Assembly (NCBI GenBank): GCA_963971425.1
Contig: OZ020526.1
Coordinates: 6,165,976-6,229,975 of the forward strand
Reading direction: 5' to 3'
Length of the DNA: 64,000 nt
From: Bryoerythrophyllum caledonicum
Lineage: Eukaryota; Streptophyta; Bryopsida; Pottiales; Pottiaceae
Made by a program: the position numbers and the translations under genes
Part shown: positions 4,771-60,360 of the stretch, piece after piece
Position numbering within the stretch: the stretch's first letter is position 1
Layout of the letters: the number at the start of each line of letters is the position of its first letter
Notes under the pieces: model-generated
Database searches by the model: none
Seen by the model: the letters and a program-made list of their open reading frames with translations, nothing else
Told to the model about the DNA's origin: nothing

Positions 4771-5679
4771 TGTTAACCGGAGATTTAGGCTTATTATAGG
4801 GTCCTGGTAGTAATTTTTTGAAAGTTACTAAGTAGTTATGGTTAAAAAGTAAACCAGTGGATGAATCTGGATAGTGGATGAAACTGTCCTGAATGACAGT
4901 GGATGAATCTGTCCTGAATTGACAGTGGATGAACTGTCTGAACTTTGGATGAATCTGTCCGGACCTGGATGTCATCCATCCGGACATCTTTCATCCATTA
5001 GGGCAAATTAGGGTTTGGAGGGGGTAGAGAGCCGCCCTCTTGGGTTGGAGGCTCATTCTCTCTTTCCCTCTCTTCTCTCTTGGTGTGTGTGTGTGGAGCT
5101 CGTAATGTGTTAGACTAGAATGTAGACGTGTGGTTAGAGAGTCAGGATCTGGAGCTAATGTGCGGATCTGTAGTTGTAGAGAGTATGGAAGAGGTTTGTG
5201 AAGGTTTGAGGAAGTAAAGCATGAATTGGATACTATTTCTTGCGTGTTTGTGTTGGTGTTGCGAATGTGTGAGTAGATCTTGTTGTTAGAAGAGCATTTG
5301 AGTGCAATTGGGTTGTGGGTATTGTAGATCTGGCCTAAATCCATTAGATCTAGTACAGATCTACCTTGATCTACTAAACCCTGACCAAAACTAGTGTGTT
5401 AGAGGTGGAAACGAGTCCGGATTTGTTGTGGGTATGTTCTGATTTGCTGTAATTGAGTACGGAAACTTCAGATCTATACGTTAAACGTAAGAAAAACTAC
5501 AGAACCGAAGTCCTAACAAACCCTGAATTCAGATCTAGATTCAGATCTAGGTCGATTCGGAGGTTTTAGATTCAGTACAAGTCAGATCCTTGACTTGTGT
5601 CTTATGGCTGGGAATTACAGTTTGGACAAGTGTAGAGAAGATGTTTCACCTAATCTTTGGGTGAAATCTCCCTTTAACA
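4771..5679 (+). mobile_element. solo LTR with 5-bp target duplication
   Basis: A 909-bp segment starts TGTTAACCGG and ends CCTTTAACA, so it has TG...CA ends with short inverted TGTTAA/TTAACA termini. It is flanked by CAAAC on both sides (4766-4770 and 5680-5684), the 5-bp duplication expected of LTR retroelement integration. No internal region or second LTR adjoins it, so it is a solo LTR. It carries a cluster of GGATGAA motifs (4855-4995). A related LTR with the same ends and motif is at 31177-31741. It interrupts or abuts the 5' edge of LINE copy B. Confidence 0.8.
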
Positions 5680-5719
5680 CAAACCAATCCCTATACTACA
5701 CCAAAACGAACTATACATA

Positions 5720-6178
5720 TATCTAGGTACAAATCTTGTCCCCTCACTAAAATGGAAAATCCAAATTAACACCACAACCACAAAGCTCATCAAACAATGC
5801 AAAGAACTAACAACATGTCCGGCCACCATGAAACAAAAAATAAAAATGGTTGATACCGTATTACGCCCAGGTGTGGCATACAGTTTTTATGGTGTACCAT
5901 ACTCTATGCCAACCATCAAAAAACTTGATCAAAAAATAATTGCCATACAAAAAACCATATGTGGCTTACCTAAATGTATGTCAAACGCAATAACACAACT
6001 CCCACATAACCTATTTGGACTTGAAGCTTTCTCCCTCAAAAATGCATACCTCCGATGTATAGGCGAACAACTACAAAATGCTCTAAACGACAAAGGTAGA
6101 CTAGGGAGAATATACAATGGGCTAACTCAATACGTCCTGGCCCAATATGGTGGTGCGGAAAACATACCCAGAATTTAA
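5720..6178 (+). pseudogene. LINE reverse transcriptase, C-terminal/thumb part
   Basis: The frame reads YLGTNL at 5720, the YLG motif that follows the palm in LINE reverse transcriptases. It continues with the thumb pattern: Lys-rich helix, VLRPGVAYSFYGVP, a LD..I...QK..CGLPK segment, then a helix ending at a TAA at 6176. The palm with its FADD-type active site is missing upstream, where the solo LTR sits. RT copies the LINE RNA at a nicked target. This part alone is not functional. Confidence 0.65.
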
Positions 6179-6930
6179 AAAAGTGACTGTATAAGATCAC
6201 CAATAACACGAACATTCTTCTTATTAAAACATATAGCTAAAGTCCATCTCAAAAGTACGCTCCCAAACTTCCTCATTAGTCCTACATCACTAGAAATACT
6301 ATGGCACCAAGCAGCACTAGACCACAACACACTTAATACCCAACTCTCCCAAAAGCTTCTACAAAAACTCCTTTCAAAAAATATTTTTGAACTAACCCAA
6401 ATTACTCTACCCAATGGCACGCACATCGTGAACAATGTAGACTTCAAAACCTACCATTTCACTCCATCCAAACTATTAAAAAGTGCCCTAAACGTTGCTA
6501 AACAACTATTTTGCCACCCTACATGCCCCACTACATGCTATACTCCTTGTAACATACACCCATACTCTCATATACTTAAAGATTCATTCATCACCCCCAA
6601 CAATAACACCACCCCAAGAAATAGCCCCACAAGAATCAATCCCCCAACCCTCCACAAACATACCATCTCCGCCCCCCAACATACATCCCCAAAATCCCCA
6701 CCACATATCCCATTAATAACATCATACGACATAAACATATACAACACACAGACACAAATAACATACAAAATACCTACACAAAATATCTATGCCAATGGCA
6801 ACACAATGATAATACATACGATAAATGGCTACCTCAAAGAGACCTTTTTCCACGACACAACACCAATACCTCCACACATAACATTGAAAAATTAAAACAA
6901 TACTACCATAAAGTTCAAAACAAAGCATAC

Positions 6931-7818
6931 TTGGATATCATCCTAGCCCACCACCCCCAAGAACAATTCTTAGACTCAAGATCCGTAACACCACCCATAA
7001 TTATCCCGCTATTAAACATCTACACAACAGAATGCAATCCCGAAAAAGATATTCTTACAACCTCAAACACAATTCAAATAGATAACAATCAAGCACATCT
7101 ATACGAAGAAAATGGCCGACATTTACACACCATCCCCGTTACTCGACTTCAATGGTTATGGAATCAATACAATACAAAGTTGCAAACCCCTACAATCATC
7201 GAAACAACGACACAACCTTTTGAAACCGAACTAATATGGCTCTACCAAAGGTGTAAATACCGAATACCAAAAACTGACCCCCTAAAAAATGCGCAATACA
7301 CAATACCCACTCCCATTTTAGACTCACTTATCTCATCATTTAACATAGAACAATCATACTTCTCTTCCCCAATCACATGTTCTATCAAACTAAAAAAATT
7401 CTACTCACCTTATGAAAGAGATAGAATATTTGGATCCCTAGGCAAGGCCTTTGAATATAAATGGACCGGTAATGGCATAGCTCACCCCCACAACAAGAAG
7501 GACATGGAACAAGCCATACATTGGGCTAGACTTGCCGCAAAACACGATCCAAACAACACGAAAACAATCATCATCACACCGAACAATAATTGGTACCAAA
7601 ACAACAACCAACATTCCAACCCATTCCCAGACTCCCATATCATTGCACTATTTGAAGCAGACACAATACCATACGAAGAACCTACTATTCCACCAGAGAT
7701 AAAAAAAACCCCGAATAGAACCATCCACATTACAAATATTATGCGTCCATCATCAAATACAAACCCTTGGCTCCTTAGAAACAACTTGCGGAACTTACCT
7801 CCATCACAGACAATCTAA
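6931..7818 (+). pseudogene. LINE ORF2 domain resembling PCIF1-type N6-adenine methyltransferases
   Basis: A 295-codon open frame between the RT thumb and RNase H, in line with both. Residues 143-255 read YFSSPITC, then IFGSLGKAFEYKWTGNG, AHPHNKKDMEQAIHWAR and TKTIIITPNNNWY. This follows the spacing of the PCIF1/CAPAM m6A methyltransferase core as I recall it: FxSPxxC, FGSxG, G...NPPF, a helix with (M)xxA, then a beta strand IxxxPxW. The catalytic NPPF is HPHN here (residues 185-188), so this copy would not be expected to methylate. Known families would put such a domain on mRNA cap or internal adenines; a role in the LINE cycle is unknown. The match is by eye and needs a profile search. The frame ends in a TAA before RNase H, another sign of decay. 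Confidence 0.5.
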
Positions 7819-7982
7819 ACATACACCGACTATACGCAAAACTGGCCCCACCAACACCCATATAAACCCCCGTAAACAAAAGTAAAAACTGGTCAAAACT
7901 AAACTATGTCAACAACACATTAAACTATTCAGTCATACCTCCTCCTCTTCTAGACTACCCAACCCAAACCACACCAAAATTT

Positions 7983-9383
7983 AATCCCACACATAGTTAT
8001 TACACCGGTGGCTCTTTTAAACCACCAGAACAAATTAGCCCGGGCTCTTGGCGCAGAGAAAAAGCTGGCTATGGCATATATAATTCTACCAAAGAAATTA
8101 AATTAGCCAAAAGACTTCATGGACTACAAAATATCCTAAGAGCAGAACTCATGGCCATTCACAAAACACTACAAATCATCACAACAAAATACAAGGATGA
8201 ACCCGCACATATATTCACAGATTGTATAAATGCACTCTACCTACTAAACACTCAAATAACACACGCTACACTTCATAATAGCCACCCCGACCAAACCATA
8301 TTAACATCGATGGTCCAAATGTTACAAAACCGAACACAAATCACAACCCTCCACAAAGTGAGAGCCCATGCCAACATTGATGGCAACGAACAAGCAGACA
8401 AACTAGCAAAAGAAGGCCGAGAAAAAACACACAAAAATGCCAAAGACCCTCACGAACATGCCCATGCTACCCCATACTACTTTCAAAAAGAAGATTGGCC
8501 TTCCAAAGAAGATACCCCCGACAAAGGCCCGATCAGATTTTTGGGCAAATATCTCAAAAAACAAGACCTCCACAACAACCTTGACACAATCTCAGAAAAT
8601 ATCCCTAACATAGAAAAATGGACTAACAATAACGACATAGACAATGAACTCTCTACAAATTTTTGGAAAAACCCCATCATCTCAGACTCGCAAATAACAT
8701 GCCTCATCAAATTCCGTACTGGTCAGTATATGGGATACGCTCGCAAACAACTCTTCTTTGGAATAGAAAGATTCCCATCCATAACATGCCCCATATGCCC
8801 CTCAACGGACCCCGACCCATGGCTTCATGTCCTACTCAAATGCCAAAATCACCACATACACTCTCTAATTGTTAAAAGACATAATAAAGCGGTATGGGAA
8901 GTCCAAAAACTAATCACCTCCTACAATAAATCGAGATGTTTTATACTAATGAACGCCGGCACTTTTAATAACAATCCACAGGAGAATACGGTCCCCCCTT
9001 GGCTACTCCCATGCTCATGTATGACCCAAAGATGTCATTGCAACGCTAGGCTCAAACCAGACATCCTTTGTGTTAAAGATTTACCATACAATGATCCACC
9101 ACCCAAAAACATTAACCAGGATTACACCATTCAATTCATTGTATTCACATACTCCAACGATAGATTTTCCCTGGAAACAATCCAAAATAAAATAGATAAA
9201 TACCAATCCCTTATTGACGACATCAGTGCCCTTGGATGGAATGTAGACCCCCTCATAGTAATCACATCTGGCGCTCGTGCCACCACCTTTATCCCATCTA
9301 TGAAGACACTAGAAGATACCTTCAAGATACCCATGGAAACAATTAAAACCACCTTTAAAAACATTAACACCATCGCTATTTAA
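7983..9383 (+). pseudogene. LINE ORF2 C-terminus: RNase H plus R2-type restriction-like endonuclease
   Basis: One open frame runs from about 7983 to the TAA at 9381-9383. RNase H motifs follow in order: YTGGSF (8001-8018, where YTDGS is usual, so the first Asp is lost), AEL (near 8143), FTDCINALYLL (near 8216) and the HANIDGNEQAD histidine/Asp block (near 8368). Next comes the endonuclease signature known from R2/R4/Dualen LINEs: a CCHC knuckle (CPIC, then His and Cys, near 8797-8853), RHN (near 8878), KPD (near 9056), and a conserved strand and helix ending in KYQSLIDDI..LGW. RNase H removes template RNA; the endonuclease nicks target DNA. Copy C has Glu where this copy reads FIVFTY (FIEFTY there), so copy B also lost a probable nuclease residue. 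Confidence 0.75.
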
Positions 9384-28439: not shown

Positions 28440-30335
28440 ATGACGTCGGATTGGTAACACTGCTGGAGTCCCAATCCGGACATCCGAGCACTTCCGGTGA
28501 CACCTGGAGACTTCCAACTGCAGCCAGCCCGGAGTCCCAACCTGGCCATCCGATCATTTCTGGCGACACCCGGAGATCAGGAGGCTTCCATCTGAAGTCA
28601 ACCTAGAGACCTTTCAGCTGCAGCCAGCCAAGAGTCCTAACCCGGCCATCCGATTATTTCAAGTGACACTCGACGACCCGGAGGCTTCCAGCTGCAACGA
28701 GCCCGGAGTCCGAACCCGGCCATCTGATCACTTCTAGTGACACCCGGCGACCCGGAGACTTCAAGCTGCAGCCAGCCCAGAGTCCTAACCCGGCCATCCG
28801 ATTATTTCTAGTGACACTCGGCGACCCGGAGGCTTCTAGCTGCAGCCAGCCCAGAGTCCCAACCCGGCCATCCGATTATTTCAAGTGACACCCGGCGACC
28901 CGGAGGCTTCCAACTGCAGTCAGCCCGGAGTCCCAACCCGGCCATCCGATTATTTCTAGTGACACCCGGCGACCCGGAGGCTTTCAGCTGCAGCCAGCCC
29001 GGAGTCCCAGCCCGGCCATCCGATTATTTCAAGTGACACCCGGCGACCCGGAGGCTTCCAGCTGCAGCCAGCCTGGAGTTCTAACTCGGCCATCCGATCA
29101 CTTCCAGTGACACTCGGCGACCCAGAGGCTTCTAGCTGCAGCCAGCCCAGAGTCCCAACCCGGCCATCCGATTATTTCTAGTGACACCCGGCGACTCGGA
29201 GGCTTCTAGCTGCAGCCAGCCCGGAGTTCCAACCCGGCCATATGATCACTTCTAGTGACACTCGGCGACCCGGAGGCTTTCAGCTGCAGCCAGCCCGGAG
29301 TCCCAATCCAGCCATCTGATCACTTCTAGTGACACTCGACGACCCAGAGGCTTCAAGCTGCAGCCAGCCCGGAGTCCTAACCCGGCCATCCGATTATTTC
29401 AAGTGACACTCGGCGACCCGGAGGCTTCTAGCTCCAGCCAGCCCGGAGTCCCAACCCGGCCATGTAATCCCCTCTAGTGACACCCGGCGACCTGGAGGCT
29501 TCTAGCTACAGCCAGCCCAGAGTCCCAACCTGGCCATCCGATTATTTCAAGTAACACCCGGCGACCCGGAGGCTTCCAGCTGCAGCCAGCCCGGAGTCCC
29601 AACCCGGCCATCCGATTATTTCAAGTGACACCCGGCGACCCGGAGGCTTCCAGCTGTAGCCAGCCCGGAGTTCTAACTCGGCCATCCGATCACTTCCAGT
29701 GACACTCGACGACCCAGGGGCTTCTAGCTGCAGCCAGCCCGGAGTCCCATCCCGGCCATCCGATTATTTCTAGTGACACCCGGCGACCCGGAGGCTTTCA
29801 GCTGCAGCCAGCCCGGAGTCCCAATCCAGCCATCTCATTATTTCTAGTGACACCCGGAGACCAAGAGACCTCCCAGCTGAAATCAACTCGGAGTCCCAAC
29901 CCGGAGATCCGAACACTTCTGGTGACACCCGGAGACCTTCCAGCTGACGTCAACCCGGAGTCTCAACCCGGACATCCAAGCACTTCCGGTGACACCCGGA
30001 GGGCTTCCAGCTGCCGCCAACCCGGAGTCCCAACCCGGACATACAATCATTTCCAATGACATCCGGAGACCTAGACGCCTTTCAGCTGCAGTCCACCCGG
30101 AGTTCCAACTTGGACATCCGATCACTTCCGGTGACACCCGGAGACCCGGCGACACTCGAAGGTCGGAGGCCTTCAAGCTCCAACTCAACCCGGAGGTTCC
30201 AGACCGGATACCCGAACATGTTCCATGAACACTGGAGACCCGGCAGTCTTCCAACTGCAGTCAACACCGGCGTACCACCCGGACCAGGGGACTGTTCCAC
30301 TCTAGAAGGGGGATGGTGCACCTGGACCAGGTAAG
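28440..30335. repeat. 74-bp minisatellite, 17 units in strict register, with diverged edges
   Basis: The landmark (G/A)GAGTCC recurs at 28631, 28705, 28779, 28853, 28927, 29001 and so on to 29815, exactly 16 intervals of 74 bp. The unit includes AACCCGGCCATCCGATTATT, AGTGACACCCGGCGACC and CTTCCAGCTGCAGCCAGCCC. Before 28560 and after 29850, units are longer and less regular. It adjoins the LTR-element remnant and may be its internal spacer. Confidence 0.9.
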
Positions 30336-47300: not shown

Positions 47301-47477
47301 TGAACGCACCGATGAAAAACGAGCGCAGTTAGGGTTTGTGACAAGATGATGTTCCCCTTACAGCGACAACGAGTTGCAAGTGAAGAGCTCGGAGTAGCGC
47401 GAGAACGACCAGCCGTGCTTCCCGTGCAAGGGAACTGGCTCGCAGGTGTGCCGCTTATGCGTTGGTGCGGGCAACAT

Positions 47478-47595
47478 GGGGAATGCTATCTTGCGAACAG
47501 TGAGCGGTGAGCGGTGAGTGGTGAAACGTGAGCGGTGAGCAGTGAGACGTGAGCGGTGAGCGGTGAGACGTGAGCGGTAAGGGGTAAAAACTTTA
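47478..47595 (+). repeat. left terminal inverted repeat
   Basis: GGGGAATGCTATCTTGCG followed by imperfect tandem GTGAGCGGTGAGCG units ending GTGAGCGGTAAG. Pairs with 58590-58704. Confidence 0.85.
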
Positions 47596-47889
47596 CAGTG
47601 CATTTACTTCAAAAATTTAAGTGAAAGTAAAATAAAAAGGACTTCAAATTCTATAATATAAAAATTAATTTGTTATCCTGAAGAGAAATATAATAATATA
47701 TCTGAAATGACTTAAAAAGAAGCGGTAAGAGGGTAACCTATATCCGTAGACGTTGTCCGTTGTGGGAAGCCCCAAAAATGTAATCAGAATTTAAGTATCA
47801 GTTGACACCCGGCAAAACTTCTATGATATTCGTTAACATAAGTGGTTCTCGGAGGGTTATCAAAGATATAGGTTGCAAATCAAAATTAT

Positions 47890-50140
47890 CTAGGAAGAGG
47901 AGTTACAATAACTATCCGACGATGAAAGGAAAATATCTGACTCCTCTACTGCCTCAAGATCAAGAAATTTGAGAAAACTAAAACCTGAACAATAGGAAGT
48001 GGATGCAGACAAAGGGGAATCTACAATTGCCATCTGATTTGCAGCTTGGCCCGCATACAAAGGGAGCAAGAAATCCCTTTCCGGTGAAGCTACTAACTCC
48101 ATCAAACTGAAATAAAACGCGAGAGCACAAATTAATATGAGGGAATATAGAAACAAGTGAAGTAAAATTTAATGTTGTGACTTACTTATTTAAGCGGTTT
48201 CTCTTGGTAATCTTGCAGATTGGGGGATCTTTATCAATGATAAGGTCCACGGTGGTGGGCTGAACGGAAGTGGATCTCGGAGGCTTGGGCATAAATAGTG
48301 GCTTCAACACCACCTCAAATACAGCCTTATTGGGTTCGAAGCCGACGAAATGCCGACCAGCAGCGCGACACGCGTGAAGGGAGTTACCTGATGGATCAGA
48401 GAAAATGAGAATGATTGATTCAAAGGATAAAAGAGAAGCCAAAGAACTAAATTAGAGGCTAACAGATGGTTTAGGGATACCTGCAGATGCAAATGCATCA
48501 AAGATTACAGCGCCGGGCTTTGTGAGCAACTCAAATAGCATCTGGAAAAATATGATGCCCTTCTCTCGTCTAGCCCTCCAAGGAACATTACTGCGTATAG
48601 ACTGAGAAGAGAAGTCGTTGTGATTGAGAAGGACGTCGGTCTCTTCAATTTCCCAACCAGTCTTTGATAGATGAGCATTCACAATGTATGTGAAAGACTC
48701 CACTGGTAACGCGTTCCTCACGTAGAGGAGGATACGGAACGGTGGGTCTGAATTAGAAAAGACATGGCAAATTATTGGAATTAGTTGGAGTGTAAAAGAA
48801 ATATGTAGCAATGTCATTGAGATATATTCACTAACCTTTTTTGATGGATAAGATGGCAATGCTAACAATAATTCGTTAATACCCCACCACTCGCTAAGTA
48901 ACTTGAAATCGTAGGCTGCAGCGTATGACCGAATGTCGGTACGGATCTGCACGGACTGAGGGATGATAACCATAATGCATCCGAGTTCATGAAGAAACGA
49001 ATCAACAAATTCAAAGAGGGCCTCAACAACTGGTTCAGCATAGACATTCCAAGATGAAATGTCTTGAGGATCCCGCAAAATTGATGGACCTAGAGGCCTT
49101 CCGGGATGTCTCCAAGAATGAGGTCAAAACCACGGTGGGGACAAATTGCGCTGTGGGAAGTGGTCGAAGTGGGAGGACACACCTGCAAGAACAACAAGAA
49201 TTGATGTTATTTAGATTGAGTATTTAGGAAGAAAATCATTGTCAGACGCAATTCAGGCAGAAAAAGATGGAAAGCAAAACAAATGGTACGAGAAAACATG
49301 GCGAGACTTCACCTTCAGCATGAACTCATTCAGTCGAACCATACAGGGGTCGTCTTTTCCACCATTCATCATATCCTGGATAGAAGAGAGCTCCATTCTG
49401 ATTCCCATCTTTGGAGTTGACACGCTCGGTGGAGAGAAGGCGTCATGAAAGGGCTTCCTTTTCACCACATGAGAAGGCTGATGCGGAGGGGAGCCCGGAA
49501 TCTCCGGAGACGGTAGAACATCTGGAATGCTCTCAGCGACCACTGGAGCAGTGTCGGCCACGGCGACAGCTGAGGGAATGACGACCTCAACTTTAGAGTC
49601 GCGAGATGTAGAACCTCGAGCCTTCTTTGTGGCACCTTTTCCCTTATCCTTTGCTCTAGTTTGCACAACAACAGTTTGTGCATTTGTCTCCACCCCAATT
49701 AGCTCTGGCTGATTGGAATCGCGCAATGAAATGTCAAAGTGAGGCGGTTTCCGGACAAGGCAATCCAAATACCATCCGCAGGGCTCCCAATGTTGACGAT
49801 CCCAATCAATCTTGATTCCCTCTGATATCATGGTTGAGGGGCTCTTGGGATCCAGGTAGGATGCAAAAAATAGGGGGTTGCGGGTCACGGCCCTTGCCGG
49901 CATCAAAATGAACTTGAAATACCTGTATAAGGTACGCCTCAAAGCCGATTGAAACCCGCACTGATATCTAGGTTCATAGTTCTTGTGAACGCCCTTGTCC
50001 ACGTTGAACTCCCGATAAAATGTTGTATCCCATAGCTGAATCCGCATTTCCTCAACGTAGTCCAAAATTTGCGTGATTGGATCGCCATTATCGGGGTCGT
50101 AGTTCACTTCGACACCAATATCCAGCAACGAGCCATCCAA
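47890..50140 (-). CDS. beta-class (CcrM/HinfI-like) DNA methyltransferase-like protein of the transposon
   Basis: Exons that join in phase on the minus strand: an upstream exon ending at 49313 (open from 50140; true start not found), 49182-48481, 48387-48186 and 48106-47890 (stop TAG). All junctions are GT-AG. Exon 2 begins VCPPTSTTSH and reaches GFDLILGDIPEG, which has the form of motif IV (xDLIxxDPPY) with DIPE for DPPY. After a frame change at about 49090-49096 it continues to LTKPGAVIFDAFASAG then, across the intron, NSLHACRAAGRHFVGFEP, the motif I form (PGxxVLDPFxGSGTTxxA..GRxFIGIE). Motif IV before motif I defines the beta class of N6-adenine/N4-cytosine methylases. The N-terminal exon has an acidic, then Ser/Pro-rich linker (49400-49640). 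The altered motifs and the frameshift suggest this copy is inactive. Confidence 0.65.
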
Positions 50141-50415
50141 CAGCTACTCAGTTTCAGTAGATAGCTGCAATAAGGATTCAATGAATTAGAAACTAAAACA
50201 GAGAAAACATACTTCAGCTGCTCAGCTTCAGTAGACAGCTGCGATTAGGATTCAACTTTTTAGACTGAGAACTTTTATAACTTAAACAAAGAAAACAAAG
50301 TGAATTTATAGTGGGTATCTAAGCCCACCACGTTGCTTGGTGAAGCCAATCAGGGAACTCACTATCTGGAAACTTTGTCTTTGGAAACCTGAGAGATTCT
50401 CGAAGATTTCCAACT

Positions 50416-50757
50416 CTATTCCAACGCTAGAGCCATTTCACTTTCATCACAGGATCCATGGCAGATGTCGCGAGCATACTTAGCTTCTCCGAGGTCATCT
50501 CTACGTTCATGAGCCTTGTAATGAAGCTTCACTTGACTAAGGAATGTTGCAGTATGCTTCGGATCTACAATTGGAAGTTTTTTTCGCAGCTCTGAAAGAG
50601 TGGAGCCCTTCATCTTCTCAACAGCTTTTTTCACAAAATTGTGAGAATAACTTGAAGTCCATTCCTTGGGATCCGGAAATCTCTCGGCAAACTTTCTCTG
50701 CGCCACCGCACCTGCTTCTCCGATCTCTTGCTGTGAATACACGATAAAGTTGTCAAG
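50416..50757 (-). CDS. unknown ORF or upstream exon in the transposon
   Basis: About 113 codons on the minus strand: YSQQEIGEAGAVAQRKFAER, FPDPKEWTSSYSHNFVKKAV and a Lys/Glu-rich helical stretch, ending at TAG 50416-50418. There is no ATG at the open-frame start, so it may be an exon. It lies upstream of the methyltransferase gene on the same strand and could be its 5' exon or a separate accessory protein. No domain recognised. Confidence 0.35.
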   Translation of the reverse strand, partial: LDNFIVYSQQEIGEAGAVAQRKFAERFPDPKEWTSSYSHNFVKKAVEKMKGSTLSELRKKLPIVDPKHTATFLSQVKLHYKAHERRDDLGEAKYARDICHGSCDESEMALALE

Positions 50758-51049
50758 CACAACTCAAGACAATTTAGAGAAATCAAATGAAGCGCTCAGA
50801 CACACTAAACAATTTGCATTTGGAAAAGGAAGTGTGCCGCTGCCGGCACACCATTTGCTTCATCAGTGTCCGCATTCAAAATCCTATATCTAGGCAATCT
50901 TTGTTCACAAGTATGGCAAGATCTAAGTCTAATGGGACTTTAAAGAAAGGTTTGAAGAATGATTCAGGTTTCTAAAGTATCACACAAACACATGATTGAG
51001 TTCTTGATTTATAACTACGTCTTATTATTCGATTCACATCTTTGAAGAT

Positions 51050-51690
51050 TTGCAATGTTGTGGGGGTGTGCCGCCAGCGGCACACCCCTGCAGGGTCGTG
51101 CTTATGAGTGATTGCGCGACGCTATGGGGGTGTGCCGCCAGCAGCATAGCTCCCATCGCTCACACCTTGGTTCTTAAAATGGCCATATCTCACTCAAAAA
51201 TAGTCCAAATTAAGCGTGCAATATGTTTTTTGGCATTTTCAAACAAATTTGTTATTAAAACACACCTCAAACGCTTCATTTGGGCTATTTTTGAGTGAGT
51301 TATGACCATTCAAAGGTGCTAAGGTGTGAGATATGGGAGGTATGCCGCATAGCGTTGCGCAATCACTCATAAGCACGACGTTGCGGGGGTGTGCCGCCAG
51401 CGGCACACCTTTCATCGCTCATACCTTGGCACCTTTTAGGAACCAAGGTTTGAACGATGGAAGGTGTGCCGCTGGCGGCACACCTCCCTAGCGTCGCGCA
51501 ATCAGTCATAAGCTCGACGCTTCAGGGATGAGCCGCCAGCGGTACACCTCCCATCGCTCATACCTTGGCACCTTTTAGGAACTAAGGTTTGAGCGATGGG
51601 AGATGTGCCGCTGGCGGCACACCCCCCTAGCGTCGCGCAATCACTCGTAAGCACGACGCTACGGGGGTGTGCCGAGTGGGAGTCTAAAAC
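51050..51690. repeat. palindromic satellite GTGTGCCGCCAGCGGCACACC, part 1
   Basis: The core is the near-perfect palindrome GTGTGCCGC-CAG/CTG-GCGGCACAC. It alternates with two spacers, CCCATCGCTCACACCTTGG (itself inverted across AAAAGGTGCC) and CCCTAGCGTCGCGCAATCAC plus TCATAAGCACGACG. Five core copies in about 600 bp. The array is interrupted at 51675 and resumes at 55046. Confidence 0.85.
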
Positions 51691-52334
51691 TCCCACTTGG
51701 TCGCCCCTACCAAAAAAATTAGTTAAAATAGGGTTTTTAGTATTAATTAACTAGAAAAATAGTTAGTATTGTGTGAAATTAGATTAGATAGCCAACAGAG
51801 AAAATAGAGAAATGCTTAAGTAGTTAATTAGGTTTATAGTGGTGATAAAACCGGGTCTTAAAATCACTAATTTAAGTTCCGGGAAACAATTTCAAAAGAG
51901 TCCCGGGAGATATCCCGGGACGTAAGTCTAAAATCACCACTTAACTCTAAATTAACTAGTTGAGTTTAGAAGGTAGTTAGAAGTAGTTGAGTTCTTCTAG
52001 ATGCTAATTCTTGTTTGAATTAGTAGTAGTGGTAGAGAAAAGAAAAGAAAAGACAAAAAAGAAAAAGAAATAGAAAAGAAAAAGATTTCCAAAAAAATTA
52101 AAAAATTAAAAATAAAATTAAAAATACATACATACCCGGGTATCAACCCGGGTATGAACTAGCCCGGGTACCAACCCGGGTATCTCCAGCCGTCATGGTC
52201 GGCCTCTCTCTCCCCGAAATTTCACCTGTTCTCTCCAGAAATTCTTTCCCCCCTCCAGAACTCTTCTCTCCTCCCCCTCCTTCTCTAAAAATCTCCCCCC
52301 CCCCTCAAATTTTCTCCTCTATCTCCCTATCTAG

Positions 52335-52366
<32 letters not shown>

Positions 52367-55045
52367 TTTGTCTTTTTGGAGTTGGGGTATGAAGAAGTAG
52401 TCAAAGGAGTGAAGAAGAGGTAGTGCAACAAGGAGGAAGAAGAAGAAGGAGAGGAGGCTTTTCAAGTGTCTTGGAGGTGCGCGGACTAGGGTTTGGTGGA
52501 AGAGGTGTGCAAGCTAGGGTTTGATGGAAGAGGTGCGCAAGCTAGGGTTTGATGGAAGAGGTGCGCGAGCTAGGGTTTGGTGGAGATTTAAGGGTTTTGT
52601 GGAAGTGGAGAAGATTTGTGGCCGAAGCGAGAAGATAAAAGAGACAAAAGAAGGAGGTTGCGGGTGCAACAACAAAGGTGACTCTTGCCCATGTTGGGTT
52701 TCTTTTGTTTGTGAGAATTTCTTGTTTGTGAGTCTTTTCCTCTCTTATCTACCGGGGTGACTCCCCGGTAATATCCTCCCCGGTCTAGAGAAAAAATCCT
52801 CCCCAGGGACTTCATCTAGACCTCATTGTGTTGTTTACATGTGTAATTGTTGTTGATTGTCCTAGCCTTGTGGCAAGTTTTTATCTTGAGTTGTCTCCCT
52901 CCTCATATCATTTTAGGTCTTGCCCACAATTCCTATCTTTTTCCCGGTCTTCCCGGTCAACCGGGAAGAACCTCTTTCTAAGTCCTTGTCTCCAAAGTCT
53001 TCTCCTCGTTATCATTATATGTGACCTTGTGTTGTTAGTATGTTGCTAGATGTGTGAGACACCCATATCCACATACTCTAGCAAAGTGTTCCGGAGTTGT
53101 CTACCGGCTGACCGGTAGACTTGTGTTTCCGGGCCGGACCGGAGTTTGTGACAAGTTAATAGGGAGATTGGTGGAAATACAGGCATTTTGAGGATTTTGT
53201 CTACCCGGGACAACATGGCTCTCCGGTGAGTTAGGTGGATTCTCCATCCTCTAAAGGTTGGGCTTGAAGGTCTATGAGAGAGAAAAGCCTCCCGGTAACT
53301 TCTACCAGGAAGGAACCGGTAGACCTCCCTTCTTCAACCTCGGAGTCTTTGGTGGAGTCCTATGCGGCTATACTAATCGAGCTTAAAGAGACTCCGCATG
53401 TATCTATAGATACACCCAACCTTCCGGTGGATACCGCCACTCCACCGGTAGACCTCCCGGTGGATATTCCCAATCCACCGGTAGACCTCTTGGGGGATTC
53501 TCTTGACCCTGTTGGTACTTCCAGACGTGGTAACAATCTCTATACGTCTCAACCGGAAGAGTCTTCCGGTTGAGTCTTTGTTATATGTTATGTGTTGATT
53601 TACCTCACCGGTTGGTGAGAAGTCGTTTTAAGTTGCTAGAATTACACACTAGAGTGAGAGTAGTGATGTCGATGGGGCCCCATTGCGCACCCGGTCACTA
53701 CCACTTGAGTGGTTTCTCCGGCTACTTATTTTTGTTAGGAAAAGGTTCACCGGTTCCGGGACCGCCGGACCGGGAGTCTTCCGGTCTACCGGTCTTCCAG
53801 TTTACCGGTCTACCGGTAATCCGCCGGTGACTAGGCTACCCTTGATTTTAGGATCTAGACGCCGTTTTGTCTTTTAGTGGAACTACTTTTGGAGGGTAGC
53901 TATTGACTTTAGTGCACCTCCTAGATGCCGTTTCGTCCTTTTGCGGTCTAATTTTGGAGCGTAGCTATTGACTTTAGTGCACTCTTTAGATGCCATTTCC
54001 ACCTTTTGGGGATCTAGTTTTGGAGGGTAGCTAGTGGCCTTTGTGTACTTAAGGGCCTTGGGCTCTTGTGTTATGTACTCTTCTCTTTGTTGATCTCCTC
54101 GTGTCTTGCCTTCATTGCTTGTGTCTAGAGTCTTTGTTGAGCTTATGTGAGTAGACCGGGAGAGGGTTGAGTCCTCCTAGTGTGTCTTTGCTAGGTGTGC
54201 AAGATTGTGACTTGTTGTGTGTTAAGTGATTGAGTGTGAGTAGAGACATCCCGAGGGGCTAGGATATCCGGGTTAGATAGGTAGAGTGAGGTCCGGGACT
54301 TGTGCTCTAGACTTTTCACCGGTGGGACCGGGAAGAGTTGCTTTAGCGGATGGGATCCGGGAAGCCCACGGCTATTTATGATAGCCTCCCTTAAGTGGGA
54401 AGTATTCGGATTGGTGGGGAGTAGGGGGTGACATCCCCCTTCTCTCGGTACACCGGGAGACATCCCGGCTAAGCCTGAGTCCGGAAAATACCGGGATTAT
54501 TACCCTTGCAGTGGATGAGTTCCGACGATCCCCGTGGAAGGTTGTTTTACTCATATGATTTGTTTAGTACTAACTTGTTGTGAGTCTTGTATCTTCTTGC
54601 TTTGATTCATTGGGTGTGGTTGTAGTTGGAACCCGGGCTTGCGTGCCCGGTTTACCGGGACAAGTTCCCGGTAGATTGTGAAGATCGGTAAACCGACTGC
54701 GACCTCTTTAACTCCTTCAAGGTGTAGGGTTAGATTGTGGATATCGTGGCCTCTGGACTGCGAGAACGGAGGGTAGTGACTTTCCGGGCACTGTAAAAAC
54801 TTACCTGAAATCTACTCTGACGCTCAACAGAGTTTAACTGAAACACATATGGTTACTTGTTACCGGTTACTAAGGTACCGGGGAAGCCATCCTCCGGGAT
54901 GTGCCGAGGTATTAAATGTGGATTATTGTTAAGATTTAAAGAGTTTGATGCACGTTAAAAATCCCTGGAAACGATCTGGTAAGTTGGGCTTGCTTAAGGT
55001 TAATTTCGGTTAATTTTGAGAATAACGAACCACTAGACTACGACA
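51675..55045. mobile_element. 3.37-kb LTR-like insertion, probably a solo LTR
   Basis: Splits one satellite palindrome. TGCCG stands on both sides (51670-51674 and 55046-55050), a 5-bp duplication. It begins AGTGGGAGTC and ACTCCCACT (a 9-bp hairpin) and ends ACTACGACA. A CT-microsatellite followed by TATATATAT (52340-52368) resembles a promoter at the U3/R boundary. The rest is rich in CCGGTAGACC-type words, with no gag or pol. Solo LTR of a large LTR element is the best fit, though the left end is not a canonical TG. No sign of a second LTR. Moderate certainty. Confidence 0.45.
52340..52400 (+). promoter_or_regulatory. TATA-like promoter within LTR-like insertion
   Basis: CTCTCTCTCTCTCTATATAT followed by ATATTTTGTC. 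Pyrimidine-rich sequence upstream and a purine-rich transcribed-looking stretch downstream fit an LTR promoter. Confidence 0.4.
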
Positions 55046-55370
55046 TGCCGCCAGCGGCACACCTCTCATCGCTCATACCTTGGCACCTTTTAGGAACCAA
55101 GGTGTGAGCGATAGGAGGTGTGGCACTGGCGGCACACCCCCATAGCGTCGTGCAATCACTCAGAAGCACGATGTCGTGGGGGTGTGCCACCATCGGCTTA
55201 CCTCCCATCGGTTACACCTTGGCACCTCTTAGGAACCAAGGTGTGAGAGATGGGAGGTGTGCCGCCAGCGGCACACCTTCTATCGCTCACACCTTGGTTC
55301 TTAAAAGGTGCCAAGGTGTGAGCGCTGGGAGGTGTGCTGCTGGCCGCACACCCCCACAGCATTGCACATT
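55046..55370. repeat. palindromic satellite, part 2
   Basis: Continuation of the array at 51050-51674 after the nested insertion; three further cores, some degraded (GGTGTGGCACTGGCGGCACA). Confidence 0.8.
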
Positions 55371-55499
55371 CCCTCCTATGCGCATCAAACTCCTATTTAC
55401 TGACAGAATCAATTTCTCAAAATCCAATTTAATCTGGCTGAAGAAATTTGGACTCAGCAAGTGGATAAAGGGACATACATGATAGAGGATAGAGTTCAA

Positions 55500-55985
55500 T
55501 GACGTAGGCGTGTGCGTATAGCACGTCCTTTTCGTAGAGTTTTGCTTTGCTTCAGCTGCATTGATTTCCGCCTTCGATACCAGTTTTTAAAATAGTTCAA
55601 AGGCTGCCCGGCCATGCCTTGAATTCGGTAGAGCTTGTGAACAAGATTTGTTGTCACAAAAGATTTCTGGTTTTGCCTGCATAGGTAGATCATTAAACCA
55701 TTTAGACAAATTTTTCATTTGATGCAAAAGATTAAGTTGTTTGCACATAAAGAAACTTCAGGAACATCGTCACTTTCTGCTCCATTGTCATTCAAATCCA
55801 AGGCTTGGGCACTTCCTGCAAATACTGATTTGTTAGTGATGAAATCACAAGTCCATTGAGATTAGGTTTCTTTTTTGATAATTACCTGATGGCTGCACAG
55901 CAGAATTCGAGGGGTTCAGTGTCTCCATTTCAGTATCTCGTTCATCTCCGCAAACTTACACATCAGATTGGCTCTCCATTTCTGC
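55500..55985 (-). CDS. possible small exons of an acidic/basic protein
   Basis: On the minus strand, a segment with METLNPSNSAVQPSG ends at a GTAATT donor near 55885. A TTTGCAG acceptor near 55817 joins in phase to SAQALDLNDNGAESDD and VPEVSLCANN. A further stretch after an ATGCAG acceptor near 55683 is strongly basic (NWYRRRKSMQLKQSKTLRKG) and ends near 55500. How the second and third pieces join is unclear, and a TAA lies near the presumed start. No domain recognised. Could be the 5' end of a minus-strand transposon gene. Confidence 0.25.
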
Positions 55986-56161
55986 AAATTCAGTTGAGAG
56001 AACACTAGAGGGACAAGAATGAGACAAGAATGACATCATCCGATAAATGGAGATAATTGTGCAAAAAAATCCATCAAAACTTTAACAAGACACAGTATGA
56101 TCAAAAAAGCCAGAAGAGATATTCTATCCAAATCAGAGAATGGAGCTCATTTCTCTAACTA

Positions 56162-56713
56162 ATGAGCGACAAAACATCGTGCATATTCCAACACATTCTG
56201 CATAAGGCGGAGCTAAACAACAACAAGACAGAGACTCAACAAATGATCTCAACAGGCCGAATCGAGTTACGGCCCGACAGAAGTACACATGTTTCTCACC
56301 AAGCACTTCGCAAAGCGAACACTATGTTCGCAACCTCAGTGCACGATTTCGATACTGGCTGCATAAAATTGGACTGGGTGGAGAAAGTTGGATATGAATT
56401 ATTAAGCATACATTGCAGATTAAAACACCGTGTTCACTCAATCACCTGTAACACCTATAGTCACTCTGAACCTAGAAGACATGCACGAGAAGGCGCAGGC
56501 ATCTCCGTCATCAGATCCACGAAGTCTGGAGACACGGATTCCGCACACGAAACCTCCCCGATCCCACGACACAAATTCCGCACTGACCCTTATACATTTG
56601 ATAAAGACCTTGCGCGGAAGGCAAAAAACGTATCCTTCACTGTCTCACATTGCAATGAAAACATAGTTGAAAAACCGAATCTGAATTGGCTGAAATGCCA
56701 TCTTGCAATGTAG
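56162..56713 (+). CDS. open frame of unknown function upstream of SWIM ORF
   Basis: A 183-codon plus-strand frame starting MSDKTSCIFQHILHK and ending at TAG 56713. No recognisable domain. It may be coding or chance. It is on the same strand as the SWIM ORF but separated by about 80 bp. Confidence 0.2.
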   Translation: MSDKTSCIFQHILHKAELNNNKTETQQMISTGRIELRPDRSTHVSHQALRKANTMFATSVHDFDTGCIKLDWVEKVGYELLSIHCRLKHRVHSITCNTYSHSEPRRHAREGAGISVIRSTKSGDTDSAHETSPIPRHKFRTDPYTFDKDLARKAKNVSFTVSHCNENIVEKPNLNWLKCHLAM

Positions 56714-56790
56714 CGGAGACTGTCCACAACAAGTGATTGTAGCAGTCAGGAAAACGTGGAAATGATTTATACGTTGCCACTGTCGATGAC

Positions 56791-58116
56791 ATGGTTCGGG
56801 CATTCATGCAAGTCGTGGCTTGCTATCAATACTCGAAAGGTGAGCGAGGAAGGCAAGGGCCTGGGAAGGAAGAGCTTCGACTTTGTACTGCTCATTGGAT
56901 TGCTCAACGTTCGGGGAACTCAAAATCTCTTCATGAGGCTTTCTGTAATATGCCTGGAGATGCTGAGTTTTGCACTCGCCCTCCACATTTGGAAGGAGAG
57001 GAAGTCTTCTTGTCCGTGAAACGAAAGCCAGACCTTCCTCCCGGATTTGAGTTCGGTTCTCATCGTCCTGACAAAATCAACATTTCACGTCCTAGAGTCG
57101 CGATAAGGGCGTCTTCACAAATTACTATGGACCTTACTACTCACGATTGTATGTATTCAACAGTTGCGGAAGCTCCAACAAACCTCGCCAGTACCCTTAG
57201 ACCTGGAATTTCAACAAGGATAACCCAGAATATGGGTGTGTTGGAGACTACCTGTGACGAGAGCAAGTGGCATATTGCTAGGCTTCCGAGGACATCAACG
57301 AAAGCCTGTTTTGCACAACAGGCTAGTACGAAGAAGAAGTGTACTGCTCGAATTGTGCAGAACAACAAGAGTACTACCGCACCGACTTACAGTAGCATGA
57401 TGAAGAACTATAAGAAGACGCGACTTGATAAGATGCAGTTTTTCTTCTGTAACAAGGACATCAATCACTGTGTGATGGAATCAAAGAGGGACTGGGTAAT
57501 TTCTAAGCCAGTGGTCCCCGAAGTTTGGCCGGTGATATCTGGCACGTCCCTTACGAAGGCCGAGATTCTACGTCTGGGAAGTGCAGGTTTTCGTCTCGCA
57601 TCACGTATAATACTCTCTCCCCGGAAGTTGTTCTCTCAGGATGGTGCATTGTTTGACCTGAAATTTGTTTCAACTCCGGTGAACTCAGATGAGCATCCGA
57701 AGCGAAGATTCGGCAAGAACGTCCGCTGGAATCCGAAGGCCCCAACCACCAGACATCGGAACACCTACGCATCTGCGCTTTCGGTTCTTGGAAAAGTCAG
57801 TAACCTTCTTATGCTCCCTGATCTTGCCTTTGGCTGCATTCTCTCGTTTGAGTCCAAATCCATAACTAAAGTTTCAAACTACATGATCTCTATTAGTCAA
57901 TTTTCCAGTTGTGACTGCGTGTCTTTCAAGGAGTTGTCCAGCAAGTCTCTAGGCAGACGTCCTCAATGGTGTTACTGCAAACACCTTTATTTTATCTTTA
58001 CCATTGTTTGTGAGCTAGATCCAGAGGTAGAAGTCTTTATGCACGCCCCTAGTTTTAGTTTCAACGAGATTAAGCGTGTTCTCGAAGTCTTGCTTCAGAA
58101 AGAGGGTTGCATATAG
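56791..58116 (+). CDS. SWIM zinc-finger protein of the transposon
   Basis: An open frame of 441 codons (MVRAFMQVVACYQYSKGERG... to TAG). Near the C-terminus, YMISISQFSSCDC (CDC at 374-376) and QWCYCKHLYFIF (CKH at 396-398) form the SWIM pattern CxC...CxH, with the usual preceding beta strands and following helix. SWIM fingers bind DNA or protein and are common at the C-terminus of Mutator-like transposases and FAR1-type derivatives. The upstream 370 residues are basic with several Cys, and I cannot align them to a DDE catalytic core. The start is uncertain and an upstream exon is possible. It lies at the right end of the element, opposite in strand to the methyltransferase gene. Confidence 0.6.
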   Translation: MVRAFMQVVACYQYSKGERGRQGPGKEELRLCTAHWIAQRSGNSKSLHEAFCNMPGDAEFCTRPPHLEGEEVFLSVKRKPDLPPGFEFGSHRPDKINISRPRVAIRASSQITMDLTTHDCMYSTVAEAPTNLASTLRPGISTRITQNMGVLETTCDESKWHIARLPRTSTKACFAQQASTKKKCTARIVQNNKSTTAPTYSSMMKNYKKTRLDKMQFFFCNKDINHCVMESKRDWVISKPVVPEVWPVISGTSLTKAEILRLGSAGFRLASRIILSPRKLFSQDGALFDLKFVSTPVNSDEHPKRRFGKNVRWNPKAPTTRHRNTYASALSVLGKVSNLLMLPDLAFGCILSFESKSITKVSNYMISISQFSSCDCVSFKELSSKSLGRRPQWCYCKHLYFIFTIVCELDPEVEVFMHAPSFSFNEIKRVLEVLLQKEGCI

Positions 58117-58589
58117 TGTTTGATTTCACAAAGTAACCCTTTTACCTATTTTCTATAATATGTAAGAGACAGTGAGACTACAGGGCCACCGCTGTATTGG
58201 CAAGAATTTGAATTGTTCTTGAATCGCTCAATGTCTTTTTGATAATTTTATTTCCCACTTTTTCAATCTTCACTTTTTTGTAATTTTGTTTCACTTTGTT
58301 TTTATCTTTTTTGTCACTTTTTTCTCTCTTTTATTTTCTCATATTTTTATACTTACGTTTTTTTTCCTCTTTTTGGTTTGTTTTTCACAGTTTCTGCCCG
58401 CGGTCATGTACGTGAAATTGTCTTGCTCCTTTCTCAGTCATAAGGCCGTCTTGGAATCCTTATTTTAGATTATTTTTGGTAACATAAGTTTCAGTTCCTG
58501 TAGTCTGATTACTATCGTATAGTAAAAAAGTAACTTTCATATAGTGAAAAAGTAACTTTTATATAGTAAAAAGTGACAATTTTCAAAAC

Positions 58590-58704
58590 TTTTTACCAAC
58601 TATTTTCTTACCGCTCACCGTTCACCGCTCACGTCGCACCGCTCACCGCTCATGCCTCACCGCTCACCGCTCACACCTCACCGCACGCAAGATAGCTTCA
58701 TCCC
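58590..58704 (-). repeat. right terminal inverted repeat
   Basis: CTTACCGCTCACCG-type units and CGCAAGATAGCTTCATCCC at the edge; pairs with 47478-47595. Several of the units have drifted (CGTCGCACC, CATGCCTCACC). Confidence 0.85.
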
Positions 58705-58858
58705 GGGCAACATCATGGTGGAGCTCGGCGGCGGCGAGCGCGAGGTCTCACGCTGCATCAACTGCAAGGGCTCCGGGTCCCTAACGTGCACCATGTGCCA
58801 GGGCACGGGCGTGCAGCCGCGCTACCTCGACCGGCACGAGTACAAGGATGACGATTAG

Positions 58859-60360
58859 GTTTGTATAACATGTATGAGTTGGTAGGGATTTTGCCATTGA
58901 AATCGCTGAGGGAGGATGTGCAGCTCCGTTTGTAAAAATTTTGAATTCGGAATAAGTCTTGCGCTGGAGTTTCTTCCAGGTTGTAGCATTGGTTAGCTCC
59001 ACAACTTAGATTGCCCGCAATGCAGGTAGATGTAGCCGCTGGAATTTGTATAATTCGGTCCTCTGATTCTGTTACAAGGGCAGACAATACCTAAGGTTGG
59101 CATATGCCTTACAAAGAATGTCTTTTCCCACGGGCAGTTGTATATTGCTTTCTCGTGTGCAACAGCTCCAAAAAATGTTTCGGTTTTTCTTGATGCAGAG
59201 TCAGTTGAACATGCCCATGATCAAGTCATGCGCAATGTGGTATACAACAAGGCGTTGCGCTGAACAATGCTAAGGCCGCACATATGTAAAAGGATCCTAT
59301 GATGAATAAATATTCACCCATTTCTATTGCATTGAATTTTAACGAACATTAATGAAATACAAATGTGAAAGAATTGGTGTATACAATAGTGTTAGAATTT
59401 TGTATTTGTATTGAACCCAACTCAATGAAACATGGTGTTTCAAATTCATATAATTATTTCACCTACTACATGTATAAAAAATGGTCTTATACTGTATCGA
59501 CATGTATGATGTGGTACTTCTATTTTTAAAAGTTTATTTGCTTCACTTTATTACATTTTTTGTGCTTCAAGAGTAAATTTTGTGAACGTATGTATAATCG
59601 CCCATTAACCTCAATTGTACCTTGCAAACCTAGATATTAATGATTGTCCTTGCCGCGGTACTAACAACCATACAATATGCTAAGCTTGATGTCAGTCCGT
59701 CCATTCCCAGTAAATAAATTCATCCAACAAAAATTATCCAACAAGAAAGGTGTCCAAAGGACACAGGTACCCCACTAGTTTGAACATGATAAGGTTGAGA
59801 TATTGAAACGACCTCCACATGAAAAATGTTAGTTGAAGAATTTTCAATTTAAAGGTGTAAGTATTGCTAGACTTTAGTATTTCTTGGGTATTCTACAGAG
59901 TAAAATACGGCCATGTATACACGGTTCCCGACTGACTTTCGGGGATTAAAAAGTTACTCCAAAAACAATGGTGAGGAAATCAGCGACGTTGAGAACCATG
60001 GCGAGGGTGGCAACAATAAATTGGCCATTCTCACAGATAAAATTCTATTGTATTTAAATGGAGTTTGTGATGACTTAAATTATTGAATCTAATGTAATAG
60101 TCAATAAATCGGCATCCTAGAAACACAATTATAAAAGGAGAGAAAATCTCCAACTGATGCCTTGTAGTAGGAAAAGAAGACCACAAATTCTTATTAATGT
60201 TCAAATATCCAATTGTTAATAGCCAATTTAAAATAACACATAAATGTATAATTTTTAAACACAATATTAAAATTTGATTATTGTTAAATTGTAATAAATA
60301 ATACCAATTTCAAAACTAATTTAATGGCTACAAAGTTGTCTTGAATCGTCTTGAATTCAA
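58859..60360. other. no gene recognised
   Basis: Starts in what would be the 3' UTR of the LQY1-like fragment. The rest is AT-rich with no supported coding. Confidence 0.5.

Follow-up and report, generated by a model that had tools for sequence, protein, structure and literature searches.

Results

An element with inverted ends inside a host zinc-finger exon

We analysed a 64,000-nucleotide stretch of DNA from Bryoerythrophyllum caledonicum (assembly GCA_963971425.1, contig OZ020526.1, positions 6,165,976 to 6,229,975 of the forward strand), called the window below, and describe here an element of 11,227 bp at window positions 47478-58704. The exon that it interrupts belongs to a host gene for a BSD2/DnaJ-type zinc-finger protein, and the element contains two oppositely oriented coding regions: a predicted multi-exon gene on the minus strand that resembles bacterial amino-methyltransferases, and an open reading frame (ORF) on the plus strand. 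Neither reaches the terminal repeats and, provided that the 5′ exons picked by eye for the minus-strand gene are correct, the two occupy most of the element.

A perfect 9-bp direct repeat, GGGCAACAT, borders the element on both sides: its left copy (47469-47477) abuts position 47478, its right copy (58705-58713) abuts position 58704, and it is found nowhere else in the window. Inside this target-site duplication are terminal inverted repeats (TIRs), the left at 47478-47590 (plus strand) and the right at 58605-58704 (minus strand). Their core, GCTATCTTGCG, has a single occurrence in the window, at 47485, as does its complement, at 58686. Over the two arms (47485-47574 and 58607-58696), which are imperfect inverted repeats, 75 of 90 positions are identical; 500 shuffles of one arm gave at most 43 matches in 90, a contrast that is overstated because shuffling destroys a 7-bp periodicity common to both arms and so makes for a lenient control. 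Tandem 7/21-bp arrays of GTGAGCG type lie inside both ends, at 47500-47585 and, in complementary form, at 58610-58684. The first-pass annotation, which a model made from the letters of this DNA, had noted the direct repeat and the inverted termini built of repeat units, and both are borne out.

When the flanks are fused with one copy of the duplication retained, a single open frame runs across the junction and encodes a cysteine-rich CxxCxGxG protein. The rejoined peptide scores 45.4 bits against DUF5351, compared with 29.2 bits for the right flank alone, and it just meets the 27-bit cut-off of BSD2_CRD, where the right flank alone reaches 22.2 bits. The exon that the element has split thus belongs to a host gene of BSD2/DnaJ type, a zinc-finger type to which we take the LQY1-like chloroplast proteins of plants to belong. 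It is the unique TIR core, the target duplication and this restored host frame that carry the argument for an insertion; since the exon is split, the host allele (47360-58860) should be disrupted.

A minus-strand gene with an amino-methyltransferase motif I predicted to be split by an intron

The minus-strand gene spans at least 50730 to 48182, with a possible start near 55955; its exons were chosen by eye with GT-AG junctions and all are predicted. At its 3′ end, an exon at 48481-48747 closes with FDAFASA (48502-48482), the first half of motif I, and the last exon, at 48182-48387, supplies the second half (NSLHACRAAGRHFVGFE) and the C-terminus. The AG acceptor and the phase of this last exon are such that removal of the predicted GT-AG intron rejoins motif I of amino-methyltransferases in frame, as FDAFASAG followed by NSLHACRAAGRHFVGFE. 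Upstream of these, an exon at 48836-49182 holds a motif IV-like FDLILGDIPEG, and a long exon at 49313-50164, open from 50143 and with an uncertain 5′ boundary, gave no significant family match. Nor did a stretch at 50325-50730, which would comprise one or more further exons and within which the frame shifts. Least certain in the model are possible 5′ exons at 55502-55955, again picked by eye. A tandem partial duplication (50134-50264; 79% identity over 57 nt) lies at the long exon's 5′ boundary.

Profile searches used a spliced read-through of this gene, with X placed at the frame change and at one doubtful junction. The search of the joined exons against N6_N4_Mtase, which the first-pass annotation had proposed as a check, did return that family (Pfam PF01555; E 1.3e-5, 25.7 bits, residues 186-231 only), though formally under the Pfam threshold. 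Seven methyltransferase families of PHROGs were matched, at E-values from 3.2e-7 (PHROG 3008) to 0.18. Five PDB sequences matched at E ≤ 10, among them DpnA (E 1.1e-3), CcrM (E 0.041) and two other methyltransferases, and two NCBIfam methyltransferase models matched weakly (E 2.9e-4 and 0.0096). When the read-through was compared by tblastn with 50,697 phage records, 169 matched at E ≤ 1, the best at 1e-3, and none of the 169 covered 80% of the query; phages gave bacterial-type enzymes only, aligned mostly over the motif I half. An alignment of 12 phage and plasmid enzymes, taken from 40 of the 169 records, matched residues 175-237 in hhalign with 97.7% probability, all eight shuffles staying at or below 0.2%; this figure is flattered and not independent, because the templates were drawn from tblastn matches to the same query.

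All significant methyltransferase matches are confined to the motif I half, over about 46-76 residues. Viral contigs and prokaryote genome contigs yielded no usable relatives of the read-through, and viral contigs none of the upstream exon; single-sequence structure predictions were uninformative (mean predicted local distance difference test scores of 40 and 33). Weak Pfam matches of other pieces (AbiJ_NTD3, E 0.21; prok_STING, 0.18; b-propeller, 0.082; HRXXH, 0.23) were taken as chance. By these matches over motif I, the C-terminal half of the predicted spliced gene is homologous to the beta-class (permuted) amino-methyltransferases of bacteria and phages.

The catalytic motif IV of the N6_N4_Mtase family is DPPY or close to it, and its aromatic residue stacks on the target base. 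In this copy, where an intact DPPY had been one of the things to look for, the position in register with DPPY of the bacterial template profile reads DIPE (49110-49099). The motif IV-like sequence stands before motif I; this would be the permuted order if that sequence, not significant by itself, is a true motif IV. The first-pass description of the gene, as motif IV-like and then motif I-like, stands for motif I and, as observed, for the order, and falls short for motif IV. Because of this departure in motif IV, we do not take membership of the active N6_N4_Mtase family as proven for this gene.

A broken reading frame and a nested insertion

The exon at 49182-48836 cannot be read through in any of its three frames, so that the gene is disrupted beside motif IV; the overlap between the two usable frames, about 30 bases, gives an unseen intron little room. 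A second frame mismatch, at the following junction, is contingent on the donor site chosen, and an in-frame stop near 50144 on the acceptor chosen.

The possible 5′ exons are separated from the remainder of the gene by a nested insertion, about 3.4 kb long (51675-55045), with TGCCG on either side of it (51670-51674 and 55046-55050). It contains a CT run followed by TATATATA, has no frame of more than 101 aa among those listed, and is probably a solo long terminal repeat (LTR) with unusual ends. It interrupts an array of alternating inverted GTGTGCCGCCAGCGGCACACC units, found at 51062-51674 and resuming at 55046-55381, with unit spacings of 64, 75 and 139 bp and long inverted-repeat arms. Given the broken frame, and the insertion that separates the 5′ and 3′ parts of the gene, this copy probably makes no active enzyme.

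The plus-strand ORF and the class of the element

The ORF at 56791-58116 (plus strand; 441 aa) measures 457 aa from stop to stop, whereas 200 shuffles of the element's sequence gave no such frame longer than 220 aa. It had been put forward as a SWIM finger protein. That it is a real open frame is upheld by this comparison; SWIM is suggested by a C-terminal CxC...CxH pattern (CDC...WCYCKH, from 57910), of a kind that occurs four times in the six frames of the window, one of them in this ORF. Searches of Pfam (E ≤ 10), NCBIfam, PHROGs and PDB gave neither a SWIM match nor a family match of any kind, and viral contigs and prokaryote genome contigs gave no usable relatives. We therefore regard SWIM (PF04434) identity of this C-terminus as plausible but unproven.

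With an exact 9-bp duplication beside inverted ends of about 100 bp, the element fits the Mutator-like elements (MULEs), for which 9-11 bp target duplications are a hallmark and TIRs are typically of 100-500 bp (stated in the part consulted of PMC3310237). The DDE transposase of MULEs was sought by scanning the single reading frames of at least 45 aa between 47400 and 58800, 105 in all, and no DDE core was recognised in those of the element; VKOR (E 0.009), the best of the 14 families listed, was taken as a chance match. Since the scan takes each frame by itself, N6_N4_Mtase went undetected as well, its motif I being split by an intron, and a transposase domain split by introns could likewise be missed. 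An exact search of viral contigs with the terminal pattern gave nothing usable.

Other features of the window

Elsewhere in the window, a plus-strand region at 5678-9383 resembles a non-LTR retrotransposon in which a methyltransferase-like domain of PCIF1 type precedes RNase H; its reverse-transcriptase part was judged by eye, with no Pfam reverse-transcriptase match. Here an ORF at 6625-7815 matches PCIF1_WW (PF12237; E 7.2e-10, residues 191-321; the best PDB match, PCIF1, at E 0.21 only), and the next ORF, at 7866-9383, matches RNase H (E 1.2e-12). It would be the window's second mobile element of methyltransferase ancestry, and a partial literature survey found no report of a PCIF1-type domain combined with a non-LTR retrotransposon. 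A tandem array at 28611-30149 consists of 21 copies of a 74-bp unit. A plus-strand frame at 45747-46331 matches the N-terminal domain of aminopeptidase P (PF05195; E 2.3e-8), which indicates host-type genes in the neighbourhood of the 11,227-bp element.

Discussion

Our best reading of the locus is that it holds a defective Mutator-like element, of a lineage that either bears a DNA methyltransferase gene of bacterial type or captured one. The form of it that we favour, with something close to an even chance of being right, is that of a Mutator-like TIR transposon in a host exon, whose methyltransferase-like protein would serve as an element-borne epigenetic accessory in intact relatives. The first-pass annotation had proposed a TIR transposon with a homologue of prokaryotic-type amino-methyltransferases, and the target duplication, the TIRs and the motif I matches support this; it had also called the element autonomous, which finds no backing in a copy with a broken methyltransferase frame and no transposase match in its single frames.

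We propose that such a transposon would have jumped into an exon of the host zinc-finger gene, giving rise to the 9-bp duplication, with a transposase that was supplied in trans, has been lost, or was not recognised here. In intact relatives, the methyltransferase-like protein may have countered host silencing, in one of two ways: either it methylated the DNA of the element, marking or shielding it; or, as DIPE replaces DPPY, it might have bound S-adenosylmethionine or DNA without catalysis and so interfered with silencing. By analogy with VANC, the GTGAGCG arrays at the ends could be binding sites for a protein of the element. In the present copy, with its broken frame and nested insertion, the methyltransferase is probably inactive.

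Several observations weigh against this proposal. None of the 105 single frames matches a transposase family at E ≤ 0.5, and no second copy of the element was found in the window, where the TIR core is present at the two ends only. The PF01555 score is one bit under the curated cut-off of 26.7 bits, and the NCBIfam scores are far under theirs (20.6 against 244, and 14.9 against 830). The 5′ half of the gene, some 400 upstream residues, has no family match in Pfam. The motif IV half taken alone is not significant (its score is 17.9, and a score of at least 17 came up in 17 of 300 shuffles), and DIPE retains the aspartate and one proline of the motif, without the aromatic residue.

These points bear differently on the other ways in which the locus could have arisen. 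A non-autonomous element may have taken up one or two host genes of bacterial-type methyltransferase ancestry once, in a Pack-MULE-type capture with no role for the transposon; we hold this to be a real possibility, and it comes close behind the element-borne accessory because no transposase was recognised and one copy only was examined. The broken frame would suit a capture, as would the multi-intron structure, which is what host genes have. Host gene fragments are abundant in Pack-MULEs according to the portions consulted of PMC13317346 and PMC3310237, and a bacterial-type N4-methylcytosine (4mC) methyltransferase is a host gene in Marchantia (as given in part of PMC8885841). The two coding regions of the element, however, look long and not fragmentary and are clear of the terminal repeats, even if the 5′ end of the minus-strand gene is uncertain; an element-borne accessory gene fits this arrangement somewhat better than a captured fragment does.

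That the methyltransferase-like region was inserted separately, nested in an unrelated TIR element, appears improbable to us. The element does hold a nested insertion and inverted-repeat arrays, but the insertion at 51675-55045 is located upstream of the methyltransferase exons, none of which it contains, so that its position excludes it as their vehicle; and the longest 25 of 140 inverted pairs include no further pair of ends that would enclose 48.1-50.8 kb. A fortuitous match in noncoding DNA, which the near-miss at the Pfam cut-off, the broken frame and the match length of some 46-76 residues might suggest, is very improbable indeed, given that Pfam, PHROGs, NCBIfam and PDB all return methyltransferases over the same residues and that motif I arises only after removal of a predicted GT-AG intron.

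A bolder version of the element-borne accessory would be that there is a lineage of plant TIR transposons in which a bacterial-type amino-methyltransferase, or a catalytically dead DNA-binding descendant of one, is a standard gene that marks or shields the element's own DNA; this we think rather unlikely as matters stand. If it were true, such elements could be a vehicle for the entry and spread of N4/N6 amino-methyltransferases in plant genomes. Should the gene prove to belong to the element family, it would make it possible to test the means by which transposons fight silencing and the routes by which bacterial amino-methyltransferases, such as the host enzymes of liverwort and rotifer, reach eukaryotic genomes.

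Comparison with known systems

That transposons carry epigenetic enzymes or proteins (TET/JBP, DNMT, Dam-like enzymes, VANC) is already known. A partial survey of the open-licence PMC literature yielded no example of a beta-class N6_N4-type methyltransferase in a TIR transposon. Among the closest known systems are the MULEs, including the VANDAL elements with their VANC proteins, which share the 9-bp duplication, inverted ends of about 100 bp, genes other than the transposase, and tandem motifs, there as targets of VANC. VANC is an anti-silencing protein of Arabidopsis transposons whose target motifs often form tandem repeats (in the part consulted of PMC5735166). In contrast, no MULE transposase was recognised in our element, and its extra gene is a methyltransferase homologue and not VANC.

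Among elements with genes for chromatin or DNA modification, fungal DNA transposons carry TET/JBP dioxygenases, and oomycete elements, including MuDR, carry SET histone methyltransferases (both from sections of PMC12730594). The fungal elements resemble ours in being DNA transposons with a gene for a DNA-modification enzyme, but the enzyme is a dioxygenase rather than a methyltransferase, the hosts are fungi, and the elements are classed by their transposases. A further case is that of DNA transposons encoding DNMT in marine viruses, which a passage of PMC5890265 mentions, citing Bao and Jurka 2013, and which narrow the novelty of our element. They too combine a DNA transposon with a DNA methyltransferase; they differ, as far as this brief mention allows, in the C5 type of the enzyme as named and in their viral setting. 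The same source, in the part consulted, describes DIRS retrotransposons with a Dam-like methyltransferase, and dinoflagellate and charophyte retrotransposons with DNMT. These are likewise eukaryotic transposons that encode a DNA methyltransferase, but they are retrotransposons and their enzymes are Dam-like or C5, not beta-class N6_N4_Mtase.

For the enzyme itself the relevant parallels are host genes. The bdelloid N4CMT is an N6_N4_Mtase of the permuted subtype beta, a host enzyme depositing 4mC and stated to have no eukaryotic homologues, and Marchantia has a bacterial-type 4mC amino-methyltransferase (in the parts consulted of PMC8885841); three protists had no PF01555 match in a portion of PMC12344493. 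In both the bdelloids and Marchantia a bacterial-type amino-methyltransferase resides in a eukaryote, as the homologue described here does, but there the enzymes belong to the host and deposit 4mC, and are not genes of a transposon.

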